Origin: Aeromonas molluscorum 848 | GTDB lineage: Bacteria > Pseudomonadota > Gammaproteobacteria > Enterobacterales > Aeromonadaceae | Direction: 5' to 3' | Length of the DNA stretch: 32,822 bases | NCBI RefSeq assembly: GCF_000388115.1 | Contig: NZ_AQGQ01000025.1 | Span: forward strand, 1 to 32,822 | Part shown: positions 26,683 to 32,612 of the stretch, piece after piece | Layout: each line of letters starts with the position of its first letter | How positions within the stretch are numbered: the stretch's first letter is position 1 | The notes under the pieces: model-generated | The model's input: the letters and a program-made list of their open reading frames with translations, nothing else | Databases searched by the model: none | What the model was told of the DNA's origin: nothing | Position numbers and translations under genes: made by a program

Positions 26683-28538
26683 TGGGACACGGCATCTTGT
26701 TCGACGCCTTCATCTACCTCTCGGCGGCGGTCATCGCCGTGCCCCTGGCCAAGCGCTGGGGGTTGGGTTCTGTGCTCGGCTATCTGCTGGCAGGGATAGT
26801 GATAGGGCCTTTCCTGCTCGGCCTGGTCGGGGAACGTCAGGACGTGATGCACTTCGCCGAATTCGGCGTGGTGCTGATGCTGTTTCTGGTCGGCCTCGAA
26901 CTCAAACCGGCGCTGCTCTGGCAGCTCAAGGGACCGATACTGGGCACAGGCGGCCTGCAGGTGGCGCTGTCGACCGCTGCCCTGGCCGGGGTCGCCGTCC
27001 TCATCGGTCTGCCTTGGCAACAAGGGGTGGCCATAGGTCTGATCCTGGCCCTCTCCTCCACCGCCATCGTGCTGCAGAGCCTGCAGGAGCGCAAACAGAT
27101 GCAGAGCGAGAGCGGTCGCTCCGCCTTTGCCGTGCTCCTGTTCCAGGACATCGCCGTGATACCCATACTGGCGCTGTTGCCCCTGCTGGCCATGGCCCCG
27201 GTCGCCCAGAGCGATCAGAGTGAGCTGGCGGGCTGGCAGCATGGCCTGCTAGTTGCCGCCGCCATCGCGGGCATCATATTTGGCGGTCGCTACCTGATGC
27301 GCCCCGTGTTTCGTGCCATCGCCCAATCACACATGCGGGAGATCTTCGTCGCGGCGGCGCTGTTGCTGGTGATCGGCATCGCCGTCTTGATGGAGTCGGT
27401 GGGGCTCTCCCCCGCCCTGGGCTCCTTCCTGGCCGGGGTGGTGCTGGCCGACAGCGAGTATCGCCACGAACTGGAAGCGGACATAGACCCCTTCAAGGGG
27501 CTGCTGCTCGGCCTCTTCTTCATGTCGGTGGGGGCCGGCATCAACTTCGGCCTGTTCGCCGAGCACCCTATACTGATCCCGGCCCTGGTGATCGGTCTCA
27601 TGGCGCTCAAGTGGCTGGTGTTGATGGCGATTGGCCTGGTATTGCGAGTGTCGCCAAGCCAGCGCTGGACCTTCTCCCTCGCCCTGGCCCAGGGCGGGGA
27701 GTTTGCCTTCGTGCTCTTCTCCTTCGCCAGTCAAAACCGGGTCCTGCCCGAGGAGATGATCGCCCTGTTGACCCTAGTGGTAGCGCTCTCCATGGCGTTG
27801 ACCCCCCTGCTGCTGATCCTCAACGACAGAGTGATCCAGCCCTGGTTTGACTATCGCAGCCGGCCGGAAGCCCCTGAGCACGAGCACCCCCAGGCCCTGG
27901 ACAATCCCGTCATCATCGCCGGTTTTGGCCGCTTCGGTCAGATAGTGGGGCGTCTTTTGCACGGTCACGGCATAGGCACCACCATCTTGGAGCAGGATGC
28001 CAGCCAGATAGAGACGCTGCGTAAGTTCGGTTATCAGGTATTCTATGGCGATGCCAGCCGCATCGATCTGCTGCACGCCGCCGGCGCGCACAAGGCCAAG
28101 CTGCTGGTGCTCTCCATCAATGACCCTGTTACCTCACTCACTGTCATCGAGATGGTGAAGAAGCACTTCCCGCACCTTAAGATATTGGCGCGGGCCCAGG
28201 ACAGGCCCCACGCCCACAACATATTGCGCCACGGGGTCGACGGGGTGTTTCGTGAAACCCTGGGGTCGGCTGTGGATCTTGGCGTGGAAGCCCTCACCAA
28301 CCTGGGATTCCGTGCCAATCAGGCCTGGCGTGCCGGGCAGATGTTCAAGCGCCATGACAACTGGCTGCTGCGCGAGCAGATCAGTTATCTGGACGACGAG
28401 CACACCTATATCAACAAGAGCCTGCAGTACCGGGACATACTCTCTGATCTGTTGCGAGACGATCAGCTGGGACCGGACCATGTTCATGCCCATAACTGGG
28501 ATAGCGGCCTCCCCAACCAAGACAAGGAAGCAAGATGA
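26682..28538 (+). CDS. kefB: KefB/KefC-type glutathione-regulated K+/H+ antiporter
   Basis: A 618-aa inner-membrane CPA2 protein that releases K+ and acidifies the cytoplasm when glutathione adducts form, protecting against electrophiles. About twelve membrane helices span 1-385 (GFVVLMLFLVGLEL-type motif near 62-75, QDIAVIPILAL). The DSEYRHELEADIDPFKG loop regulates the channel, and a cytoplasmic RCK_N domain starts at about 405 with nucleotide-binding GFGRFGQ (412-418) and VFYGDASRIDLL. The sequence mixes KefB and KefC features; the KefG partner favours KefB. It overlaps sirB2 by four bases. Confidence 0.88.
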   Translation: MGHGILFDAFIYLSAAVIAVPLAKRWGLGSVLGYLLAGIVIGPFLLGLVGERQDVMHFAEFGVVLMLFLVGLELKPALLWQLKGPILGTGGLQVALSTAALAGVAVLIGLPWQQGVAIGLILALSSTAIVLQSLQERKQMQSESGRSAFAVLLFQDIAVIPILALLPLLAMAPVAQSDQSELAGWQHGLLVAAAIAGIIFGGRYLMRPVFRAIAQSHMREIFVAAALLLVIGIAVLMESVGLSPALGSFLAGVVLADSEYRHELEADIDPFKGLLLGLFFMSVGAGINFGLFAEHPILIPALVIGLMALKWLVLMAIGLVLRVSPSQRWTFSLALAQGGEFAFVLFSFASQNRVLPEEMIALLTLVVALSMALTPLLLILNDRVIQPWFDYRSRPEAPEHEHPQALDNPVIIAGFGRFGQIVGRLLHGHGIGTTILEQDASQIETLRKFGYQVFYGDASRIDLLHAAGAHKAKLLVLSINDPVTSLTVIEMVKKHFPHLKILARAQDRPHAHNILRHGVDGVFRETLGSAVDLGVEALTNLGFRANQAWRAGQMFKRHDNWLLREQISYLDDEHTYINKSLQYRDILSDLLRDDQLGPDHVHAHNWDSGLPNQDKEAR

Positions 28539-28921
28539 TTGCCTATTACCCTCTGCTCAAACACCTGCACATGACGTTCGCCATCGTCAGTATCCTGCTG
28601 TTTATCTACCGTTGGGCCCTGGCCATCAACGGAAGCCCTCGCTTGCAGCAACGCTGGCTCAAGATACTGCCCCACGTCAACGATACCCTGCTGCTGCTCG
28701 CAGGCGTGGTGCTGGCCGTCACCCTGCAGATGAACCCGGGTTCACAACCCTGGCTGCTGGCCAAGCTCATCGCCCTGGTGGTCTATATCGGCCTGGGTGC
28801 CATGGCGCTCAAACGCCCAGACCGCAAACAGAAGGTGATCGCGGGCATCGCGGCCCTGCTGGTGTTCAACTACATCATAGGGGTCGCCATCAGCAAATCC
28901 CCCTGGGCCTGGTTCGCATGA
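28535..28921 (+). CDS. SirB2 family membrane protein
   Basis: A 128-aa protein with four membrane helices and the SirB motifs KHLHMTFAIVSILLFIYRW and LPHVNDTLLLLAGV. It overlaps the kefB stop codon (ATGA), so it belongs to the LysR-kefG-kefB operon. The conserved His residues suggest a haem or metal site, but no activity is known. A terminator follows directly. Confidence 0.83.
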   Translation: MIAYYPLLKHLHMTFAIVSILLFIYRWALAINGSPRLQQRWLKILPHVNDTLLLLAGVVLAVTLQMNPGSQPWLLAKLIALVVYIGLGAMALKRPDRKQKVIAGIAALLVFNYIIGVAISKSPWAWFA

Positions 28922-29181: not shown

Positions 29182-29228
29182 CTACTGGCTAGGATACACT
29201 CAACGCTAATCCAGTGAAGGCAAGCACC

Positions 29229-30209
29229 ATGAGCAAGAAGCTGTTACGACAACTGACCTTGGCGCGTTGCATCCCGCACCGCCCTTACAAACTGACCGCC
29301 AGCCAGCTGCAAGTTAAGCTGGAAGAAGAAGGCATACACGTCAGTCTGCGGACCGTGCAACGGGATCTGGAAGAGATGTCTGGCATGGGGCTGTTTGACC
29401 TCACCTCGGATGAGCGCAGCAAACCCCATGGCTGGTGCTTCGAGCGCCACGGCCTCAATGACTTTGCCAACATCATGCCACTCTCCCTCGCCGTCGCACT
29501 CAAGACTTGGAGCGATCAGGCCAGCCATCTGCTGCCCGCGAGCGTGTTGACAGAACTGAATCCGCTAGTCGACAAGGCCAGCCAGGTGATCCGCGACAGC
29601 CAGAGCGAACTGGCCGAACGTTGGCTCGAGAGTGTGCATCAATCGCCGCGTCCGTTTGCCGGCAACTCTGAAATACGCCGCAGCACCTTGATCCGTGATG
29701 CCCTCTGGCGAGGCCGCAAGTTCAGCGCCGAGATCCAGCGTGTCATCAAAGAGCGTACCGTGTGGCTCTGCTATGACCGCATCAATCCGCTTGGTATCTT
29801 GAACCAGGCCGATGGCCCGACACTGCTCTGCACCCTGTCCGAGCTTGACCCCAAGGTGTATGGCATACCGTTCGACCATATCAAGGATGTGGAGCTGACC
29901 AACTTCAGCGCGACCCAGCCCAAGGACTTCAACGTCCAGAAACTGATCCGCGAGCAGGCTTACCAAGATGTCAGTGGCCCTATCCGCTTCGTTGGCCGCA
30001 TAGATGCCAACAGTGCCACACTGACTGATGGTCAGATCCCGGGCCACAACCCGCGCATGACCCGCTATGACAAGCGCAGCGTGGTGGTTGAGACCGAAGT
30101 ACAGGACACCCCGGAGTTCCGCAACTGGCTCAACAACATGGAAGGCAATCTGGAAGTATTGGCACCGGAATCCCTTCGCAAGGCCTACCCAACCAGTCGG
30201 GCCAACTGA
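29229..30209 (+). CDS. WYL-domain transcriptional regulator
   Basis: A 326-aa regulator. The N-terminal winged helix domain (about 1-75) includes ASQLQVKLEEEGIHVSLRTV and QRDLEEM, the DeoR-like recognition region. A WYL-type domain lies at about 160-235 (VIKERTVWLCYDRIN, YGIPFDHIKDVELTNF), and a WCX-like C terminus runs to about 315. I take the ATG at 29229 after GAAGG; an in-frame GTG at 29214 is less likely. WYL proteins sense nucleic acid-like or nucleotide ligands and often control defence or DNA-damage genes. No such genes adjoin it here, so the only visible target is its own promoter. It ends at a strong terminator. Confidence 0.85.
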   Translation: MSKKLLRQLTLARCIPHRPYKLTASQLQVKLEEEGIHVSLRTVQRDLEEMSGMGLFDLTSDERSKPHGWCFERHGLNDFANIMPLSLAVALKTWSDQASHLLPASVLTELNPLVDKASQVIRDSQSELAERWLESVHQSPRPFAGNSEIRRSTLIRDALWRGRKFSAEIQRVIKERTVWLCYDRINPLGILNQADGPTLLCTLSELDPKVYGIPFDHIKDVELTNFSATQPKDFNVQKLIREQAYQDVSGPIRFVGRIDANSATLTDGQIPGHNPRMTRYDKRSVVVETEVQDTPEFRNWLNNMEGNLEVLAPESLRKAYPTSRAN

Positions 30210-30213
30210 TAAT

Positions 30214-30246
30214 GAAAAGCCGGGCTAAGCCCGGCTTTTCCAGATA
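30214..30246 (+). terminator. intrinsic terminator of the WYL gene
   Basis: A perfect 12-bp stem GAAAAGCCGGGC / GCCCGGCTTTTC with a TAA loop; the T4 tract is inside the stem base. Confidence 0.85.
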
Positions 30247-30353: not shown

Positions 30354-30371
30354 TGTAAGAGATCGCCCATA
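30354..30371. promoter_or_regulatory. UvrY/GacA-like site upstream of the CsrB-type RNA
   Basis: TGTAAGAGATCGCCCATA has a clear left half (TGTAAGAGATC), matching the inverted repeat bound by UvrY at E. coli csrB, and a degenerate right half. It lies about 200 bp upstream of the predicted RNA start; distant placement is also seen at E. coli csrB. A second half site (30377-30384) follows. Confidence 0.5.
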
Positions 30372-30529
30372 GGCACTGTAAGAGCGAGCTGTTTCATGCC
30401 GTAGGTTAGACCGTCAGCAACTGCCGACAATTACAAGGGAAACCAAATAAGATACTGATTATTATCAATAAAAATTAATTTTAGCCACAATGTAAAATCG
30501 TTTTCTTCCGCTTGCTCCCTCAGCCCCTC

Positions 30530-30557
30530 TTGTGACCTCGCCGTTATCCCTTATTAT
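30530..30557 (+). promoter_or_regulatory. promoter of the CsrB-type RNA
   Basis: TTGTGA (30530-30535) and TATTAT (30552-30557) are separated by 16 bp. The predicted start is at about 30564-30566, just before the first GGA motif. Confidence 0.6.
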
Positions 30558-30564
30558 CTATCCC

Positions 30565-31048
30565 ACAAGGACGGCGCGGGCATCTACAGGATGCATGCCC
30601 ACAAGAATAAAGGACTAGCCACAGGACACCTCAGGATGAGGTTGGATAGCCAGGAGGTTATCCGCCAGGACGGTCAGGAACACCACAGGAAGTGGTTATG
30701 GACACCTCCAGGACGGAGAAGCATAACCCGGATGGTTATTGGTCTGGATGACCCAGGATCACCACAGGATGTGGTAGGACGAGCTTCAGGATGAAGGCGA
30801 GATAACCGGGATGGTTATCTGTCAGGACGACGCAGGAACACCACGGGATGTGGTAATGGACACCTCCAGGATGGAGACAGTGCAGCAATCAGGATAGGTT
30901 GCTGGGTCAGGATGACATATGGACACCCCAATGGATTGGGAAGGGGAAATCCAACGGATTTGGATACAGTCAGGGAATGCAGGGAGCATTTGCAGTTCAA
31001 GGACTGGACGACACGACTTAAGGGGACGGCTCAGCCGTCCCCTTTTCT
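30565..31048 (+). ncRNA. csrB: CsrB-class sRNA, CsrA-sequestering
   Basis: A run of short stem-loops whose loops carry AGGA/GGGA, the CsrA (RsmA) recognition motif. Examples: ACCAC-AGGAT-GTGGT (30761-30775), CTTC-AGGAT-GAAG (30784-30796), GATAACC-GGGAT-GGTTATC (30801-30819), CTCC-AGGAT-GGAG (30864-30876). I count about 39 GGA triplets, 16 of them CAGGA. Stems differ in sequence while loops are constant, which is the CsrB signature. The RNA ends in a strong terminator and follows a promoter with UvrY-like sites. At roughly 480 nt it is longer than E. coli CsrB (369 nt). Such RNAs titrate CsrA dimers under BarA/UvrY control. Reading frames here are accidental. Confidence 0.92.
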
Positions 31049-31051
31049 TAT
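31020..31051 (+). terminator. intrinsic terminator of the CsrB-type RNA
   Basis: The perfect stem AAGGGGACGGC-TCA-GCCGTCCCCTT is followed by TTCTTAT (TTTTC at 31043-31047). Confidence 0.9.
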
Positions 31052-31269
31052 ATTGGCGCGCTTCATAACATCATCTCCCCCCTCCTGTAGCGCCTACATA
31101 GCTCAAAGAATCACTACCGACAGCTTGGATCGCCACATTTCCCTTTTCATGACTCCGGATAAATGGTCACAAGATCCTGGGATCTCGGATACAACACCTG
31201 ACCCCAGTTGAACCCCACAATTCCCAAGACACCTCACAGCCTTAAAATGAGGCAACTATTGGAGGTGTT

Positions 31270-31373: not shown

Positions 31374-31441
31374 TGTAGTGGTCTAATCATCCCGGACACC
31401 ATTTTAGGTGGTACAGTCGCCACCATGCCTTGAGGTGTTCA

Positions 31442-32604
<1,163 letters not shown>

Positions 32605-32612
32605 CCACTACA

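Follow-up and report, generated by a model that had tools for sequence, protein, structure and literature searches.

An enlarged, modular CsrB RNA in Aeromonas that appears to be built on a tandem 79-nt block of hairpins

CsrB titrates a global regulator, CsrA, so the number of sites on the RNA should set how much CsrA each molecule holds. For Escherichia coli CsrB the published number of GGA motifs is 22 (PMC11882849, PMC7652899). The E. coli csrB gene has its UvrY site, TGTGAGAGATCTCTTACA, with the centre at -183/-182, and TGTAGGAGA lies 5 bp downstream of it; the UvrY site of csrC is TGTGAGACATTGCCGATA (PMC4682653). According to work cited in PMC7652899, a CsrA dimer bridges sites 10-63 nt apart, best when they are more than 18 nt apart; the same article reports that a change of CsrA Arg44 alters the RNA-binding surface. 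Duplication of the csrB gene has been described in Vibrio (PMC6262261). In Shewanella oneidensis, CsrB1 and CsrB2 were predicted at 420 and 421 bp, and CsrB1 appeared at ~450 on a Northern blot; these RNAs depend on UvrY, and the gene carries a GacA-type box upstream (PMC3171408).

CsrB has already been reported in Aeromonas. CsrB and CsrC RNAs of A. veronii were found by RNA-seq and rose more than 50-fold in the leech gut (PMC5061737), and both RNAs are annotated in A. salmonicida (PMC8780938). As far as the accessible text of these two reports goes, they deal with presence or expression and give no anatomy, length, or motif count. These RNAs are most likely the orthologues of the two genes, csrB1 and csrB2, treated below. 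A literature search, mostly at the level of titles and among open papers, returned no description of a module duplication inside CsrB or of the anatomy of Aeromonas CsrB. With CsrB in the genus already published and a modular anatomy not found, the RNA described here is best seen as a known one in enlarged, modular form, and what is new is the block structure, along with the finding that tandem blocks recur in other genera.

We analyzed a 32,822-nt stretch of the A. molluscorum 848 genome (contig NZ_AQGQ01000025.1), referred to as the window. An earlier note on this DNA had read positions 30565-31048 as a large CsrB-class RNA and had named a search with the CsrB/C covariance model as a check. 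That search gave a full-length match to RF00018 well above the gathering score of 71 (Table 1). Within the genome search a second, partial CsrB match was found at 30629-30763 (57.7 bits, below cutoff), and a smaller second csrB gene, csrB2, lies on another contig (91.8 bits). An identity as PrrB/RsmZ (RF00166) was rejected, as the match at 30644-30740 reached 17.4 bits against a gathering score of 44. The CsrB-class reading was borne out as a whole: the Rfam match, covarying stems, a promoter, a terminator, a CsrA, a UvrY-type regulator, and its box are all present. csrB1 is thus an RNA of a known kind, CsrB, and as judged from its sequence it would act as a sponge that soaks up CsrA. That no gene caller would mark the locus was true in part. 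An Rfam scan does mark the 3' 291 nt, but a csrB feature is absent from two ordinary RefSeq E. coli records, whereas the E. coli K-12 record annotates one.

Table 1. Predicted features of the csrB1 locus, in window coordinates
Feature	Position	Strand	Evidence or remark
Putative distal activator site resembling the UvrY/SirA/GacA inverted repeat (TGTAAGAGATCGCCCATA)	30354..30371	+	~210 nt upstream of start
Second half-site TGTAAGAG, 5 bp downstream of the first site	30377..30384	+	conservation; likeness to E. coli
Sigma-70-type promoter (-35 TTGTGA, 16-nt spacer, -10 TATTAT)	30530..30557	+	consensus scan; conservation
csrB1, CsrA-sponge ncRNA, predicted transcript of ~485 nt, 39 GGA	30564..31050	+	RF00018; alignment of 32 orthologues; covariation; promoter; terminator
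5' part beyond the RF00018 alignment, 16 of 39 GGA	30564..30763	+	Rfam match begins at 30764
Module U1, 79 nt, four hairpins (by eye), 8 GGA	30644..30722	+	self-identity; TRF
Module U2, 79 nt, four hairpins (by eye), 6 GGA	30723..30801	+	self-identity; TRF
Module U3, 79 nt, four hairpins (by eye), 7 GGA	30802..30880	+	inside RF00018 alignment; self-identity; TRF
RF00018 (CsrB) alignment	30764..31054	+	model 1-356 of 356; 122.1 bits; E 1.1e-32
Intrinsic terminator, 11-pair stem 31020-31044, T-rich tail TTCTTA	31020..31050	+	scan; helix 17

The earlier note had put about 39 GGA triplets, 16 of them as CAGGA, in the 484 nt from 30565 to 31048, and a count of the + strand returned exactly 39 and 16. 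Mononucleotide shuffles of this segment held 14.2 GGA on average and never more than 27 (n=10,000), and order-1 sequences modelled on the whole window held 8.6 on average with a maximum of 20 (n=2,000). Other 484-nt segments of the + strand, taken at 10-nt steps with starts in the first 30 kb, contained 19 or fewer. The further statement that most of these triplets sit in the loops of short stems proved too strong. Twenty of the 39 were found in loops closed by three or more Watson-Crick pairs, compared with 7.2 ± 2.4 (maximum, 17) in 1,000 controls in which the GGA positions were held fixed; the excess in loops is clear, but it concerns about half of the triplets, not most. Since the other half lies outside loops by this strict test, the usable sites may number fewer than 39. 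Folded as a single strand, the stretch was 4.6 standard deviations below its shuffles.

The comparison with E. coli made in the earlier note also held: the same count gave 22 GGA, 11 of them in loops, in the 369 nt of K-12 CsrB, against 39 in the ~485 nt of csrB1, which is about one-third longer. The two RNAs are alike in being chains of hairpins with GGA in the loops, in their intrinsic terminators, and in a UvrY-type distal box, and the GGACACCTCCAGGATGGAGA and GCAGGGAGCA segments of the Rfam CsrB consensus are also found in csrB1. Unlike E. coli CsrB, csrB1 has ~200 nt on its 5' side beyond the Rfam alignment and a 79-nt block in about three copies, and in Aeromonas the number of blocks varies by species. 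S. oneidensis CsrB resembles csrB1 in being long and in its upstream GacA-type box, although CsrB1 and CsrB2 of that species are, as predicted, ~65 nt shorter (PMC3171408).

Distribution of csrB1 was analyzed in 37 Aeromonas genomes, all of which have a CsrB match. The gene could be delimited from a start motif (CACARGGAYG) to the terminator at 32 of the 35 loci tried, corresponding to 32 of the 37 genomes, with lengths of 411-499 nt (median, 493.5) and 32-42 GGA (median, 38). The five genomes outside the resulting alignment either have a different start or terminator (G009, G027, and G029) or have a single CsrB match that is csrB2-like by score (G018 and G030). The form seen in A. molluscorum is thus the usual one for the genus, and the suggestion that it might be a diverged family member was not upheld. 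As judged by its GCAGGGAGC segment, the same gene lies upstream of csrB1 at 23 of 27 named Aeromonas loci (exceptions: L056, L057, L058, and L074), and by the protein it encodes the closest relatives are A. rivuli (98% identity) and A. bivalvium (97%). In G029, G009, and G027 (L080, L081, and L082, respectively), a csrB1-like gene stands beside a csrB2-like one, with a UvrY-like box upstream of each; in the other Aeromonas genomes with two above-cutoff matches, the two are far apart or on different contigs. Seven Aeromonas genomes have a weak third CsrB match of 22-27 bits (G008:C35:69535, G021:C6:58684, G015:C1:293135, G009:C17:69490, G025:C117:56207, G004:C7:24830, and G032:C20:71498), which may represent another short RNA that binds CsrA or may be fortuitous.

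The promoter and the terminator that the earlier note had claimed are both present by sequence at csrB1, and both are conserved across species. Judging from the scan's own shuffles, the 2.2 kb scanned would contain 1.8 such promoters and 2.2 terminators by chance, and conservation across species is therefore the stronger evidence. All 32 csrB1 genes have TTGNNN-16-TANTAT placed 5-7 nt upstream of the start motif, which reads CACAAGG in 31 of them and CACAGGG in the remaining one; the start given in the earlier note, 30565, falls within this motif. Transcription would thus be expected to extend over the whole of 30564-31050, as predicted from these two ends.

The structure of csrB1 was examined in the alignment of the 32 orthologues. 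A single sequence cannot show covariation of stems, as the earlier note had claimed to see it, but this alignment does. From the RNAalifold result we kept the 77 of 94 pairs that are local and set aside long-range pairs (e.g., columns 6-471 and 347-446). Over the 32 sequences, 98.6% of the cells of these 77 pairs are paired, and the figure for the terminator stem (helix 17) is 99.7%. Twenty-seven of the 77 pairs have changed on both sides at least once, compared with a mean of 10.8 in shuffles and 2-5 with slid partners; because the pairs were chosen on the same alignment and only local ones were retained, these counts lean toward the structure. Thirteen of the 27 lie in helices 1-6, before position 30764, and two in helix 7, which straddles it; the aligned sequence from the window has gaps at helix 2. 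With stems covarying in both halves and a csrB1 of 411-499 nt and the same layout in 32 of 37 genomes, it is very likely that the ~200 nt on the 5' side are part of the RNA.

These data bear on three other explanations. One is that the functional RNA is a CsrB of ordinary size, ~290 nt (30764-31054), and that the 200 nt upstream are either a duplicate in decay or a remnant that is not transcribed. It is true that RF00018 aligns end to end to this segment alone and that the 5' part yields only the sub-threshold second match of 57.7 bits. However, a consensus scan, which misses weak promoters, revealed no promoter-like site on the + strand in 30557-31221, the promoter layout and start motif are conserved at 30530-30573 in 32 of 32 genomes, and the stems of the 5' part covary, which is not expected of a decaying copy. 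We regard this explanation as very improbable.

Still less probable is that the GGA-rich stretch belongs to the upstream gene (29214-30209) as its 3' untranslated region, even though that gene is on the same strand and only ~355 nt away. A hairpin, AAAAGCCGGGCTAAGCCCGGCTTTT, ending in TTTT was noticed by eye right after it at 30215-30239 (it is absent from the scan), and csrB1 has its own conserved promoter and distal box. The two are also separable: no such GGA cluster stands next to the upstream gene in A. diversa, A. simiae, or Aeromonas sp. RU39B (L056-L058), and, as a separate observation, three genomes have a csrB1-like gene adjoining csrB2 instead. The possibility with least to commend it, in our judgment a very slight one, is a translated repeat protein, or a repeat that acts at the level of DNA. 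An open reading frame of 99 amino acids on 30912-31211 does overlap the 3' end of csrB1. This frame has no Pfam match, and among the 444 gap runs counted row by row in the orthologue alignment (gaps common to several rows being counted several times), 420 are not multiples of three, which argues against translation of the stretch; the compensatory pair changes in the stems also speak for an RNA. We consider it highly probable that csrB1 is instead an untranslated CsrA sponge of ~485 nt that is activated by UvrY and was enlarged by tandem duplication of a 79-nt block, with later losses.

The extra length of csrB1 looks like a 79-nt block of four hairpins in about three copies (U1-U3, which together hold 21 of the 39 GGA). 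The best ungapped self-identity of csrB1 is at offsets of 79 and 158 nt, and TRF reported a period of 79 with 2.8 copies at 30656-30877 (score, 260). Alignment of the blocks with each other was compared with shuffles that kept the GGA positions fixed. U1 and U3 scored above these shuffles in 28 of 28 sequences (z, 3.4-12.2); the corresponding z values were 2.0-13.1 for U2 and U3 (32 of 32) and 1.1-14.5 for U1 and U2 (28 of 28). Part of the similarity can be explained by the hairpin consensus that CsrB loops have in common. A recent, simple tandem duplication was rejected as a genus-wide explanation, as a TRF period of 70-85 was limited to 3 of the 32 Aeromonas csrB1 genes; the blocks, if they are duplicates, are therefore old and diverged in most species.

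Block number differs among species of the genus. With A. piscicola and A. rivipollensis as references, one block (74-76 nt) is missing from A. salmonicida, A. media, A. popoffii, and A. bestiarum. The gene measures 419 nt in A. salmonicida, A. popoffii, and A. bestiarum, compared with 493 nt in A. piscicola, and 411 nt in A. media, compared with 487 nt in A. rivipollensis. Genes that are one block short have 32-34 GGA, against 38-39 in the two references. Since A. media and A. bestiarum have A. rivipollensis and A. piscicola, respectively, as near relatives, at least two losses of a block would be likely. In the order of events that we infer, duplication came first and loss later.

The region upstream of csrB1 was examined for control elements. 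The box TGT(A/G)AGAGATC was found at -210/-211 from the start motif in 31 of the 32 csrB1 upstream regions (the exact box is absent in L031), and two half-sites (TGTAAG or TGTGAGA) 23 nt apart were present in 28 of 32, the second being missing in the other four. A perfect UvrY inverted repeat, TGTAAGN6CTTACA, was considered and rejected: CTTACA occurs in 8 of the 32 regions, at -264 in seven and at -88 in one, and never as the partner of the -211 half-site. The conserved parts are only the first half-site and the second half-site in the same orientation. csrB2 of the same genome has a like box, TGTGAGATATTCGCCAT, about equally far from its presumed start, and the genome encodes a regulator of the UvrY/SirA/GacA type (422.9 bits; cutoff, 280). 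Most likely, UvrY would control csrB1 through the distal box. A single CsrA is encoded in the genome; 51 of its first 52 residues are identical to PDB 1y00, which we take to be E. coli CsrA, and Arg44 is retained.

Two neighbors of the locus were recorded in addition. Upstream, the window has a SirB-family gene at 28535-28921 (PF04247, 144 bits), a family whose Pfam name refers to invasion gene expression; in Salmonella, invasion gene expression is linked to the Csr-UvrY circuit. Just downstream of csrB1 is an insertion sequence (31374-32612) with an HTH_Tnp_1 frame at 31430-31750, an rve integrase core frame at 31783-32604, and matching ends (TGTAGTGGTC/GACCACTACA). It seems to sit within the remnant of another element.

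CsrB genes beyond Aeromonas csrB1 were compared using 61 loci hand-picked from the matches (L106-L168 without L116 and L120), which represent 55 distinct places, six being duplicated. GGA were counted here in the densest cluster of each locus, which is not necessarily the whole transcript, and L165 is cut by a contig end. Only two of the 61 loci had more than 33 GGA (50 in G037 and 51 in G172), and both have tandem blocks, of 99 nt in G037 and 51 nt in G172. Tandem units of at least 35 nt were identified at eight loci (L142, L144-L148, L157, and L165) from three genera and were absent at the other 53, including L140 and L141, the other csrB loci of G037, indicating that blocks of CsrB have been duplicated repeatedly, though not as a rule. 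L142 is the G037 locus with the 99-nt blocks and belongs to a genus of the same family. In another genus of that family, g5, all five sampled loci (L144-L148) have tandem units of 55-58 nt.

The longest arrays were found in genus g6, which is probably Moritella: the dihydrofolate reductase of one of its genomes, G121, is closest to PDB 2zza and 3ia4, which are presumably from Moritella profunda. A 19-base core of the 51-nt unit has at least one exact copy in 11 of 11 g6 genomes (in G210 only one, at a contig end), and the reversed core pattern, used as a control, gave 0-2 inexact matches per strand. The arrays were located at L179 (G121), L180 (G075), L181 (G234), L182 (G186), and L183 (G157), and further ones at L184 (G140), L186 and L187 (G172), and L188 (G222). 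Thirteen complete arrays from eight genomes have 3-13 units and 22-62 GGA; the longest comprises 13 near-identical 51-nt units (95% matching) with 62 GGA in 801 nt. Arrays with 62 and 55 GGA in this genus led us to reject any view of csrB1 as the largest CsrB known. Unit number differs between species and also among the csrB copies of a genome, with 6 and 7 units in the one-contig assembly of G234 and 10, 8, 4, and 3 in G172, where many contigs make array length less sure. CsrB of this probable Moritella is similar to csrB1 in its CACAAGGACG start, its tandem units of several hairpins, and its terminator, and differs in its 51-nt units and in having up to 13 nearly identical copies of them.

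Tandem CsrB modules thus occur in Aeromonas (~79 nt), in the genus of G037 (99 nt), in g5 (55-58 nt), and in the probable Moritella (51 nt), and module gain or loss seems to have occurred separately in these four lineages. In the probable Moritella, the arrays may tune CsrA activity globally, in the manner of a variable-number tandem-repeat dial. The combined proposal, that capacity changes by gain and loss of whole modules in at least four lineages and that the probable Moritella arrays are such a dial, strikes us as evenly balanced between right and wrong.

In the mechanism that we propose for A. molluscorum, a system of the BarA-UvrY (GacS-GacA) type would switch on csrB1 through the distal box. 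A single promoter with its start at 30564/30565 would then produce an untranslated RNA of ~485 nt that ends at the intrinsic terminator and forms a chain of short hairpins, with about half of the GGA in loops and the rest outside. This RNA would bind many CsrA dimers and take them off mRNAs, the dimers being held on hairpin-borne and neighboring GGA. The spacing of GGA in csrB1 is compatible with bridging over 10-63 nt by a CsrA dimer, the 39 motifs would set a ceiling of 19 bridged dimers, and the motif count suggests that capacity for CsrA is greater than that of E. coli CsrB and perhaps very high, as the earlier note had supposed. Tandem duplication of the four-hairpin block would have lengthened csrB1 and added sites, which is our proposed reason for its greater length and number of sites relative to E. 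coli CsrB, and later losses of one block in some species would have cut the sites by five or six.

The Rfam alignment omits the 5' 40% of the predicted RNA, and annotation, deletion, or expression studies built on it would therefore miss that end. A genus-wide csrB1 with close to twice the motifs of E. coli CsrB, and with a length that differs by a whole module between species, offers a set of natural variants. Such variants could serve to ask whether the capacity of the sponge, rather than its expression, is under selection.
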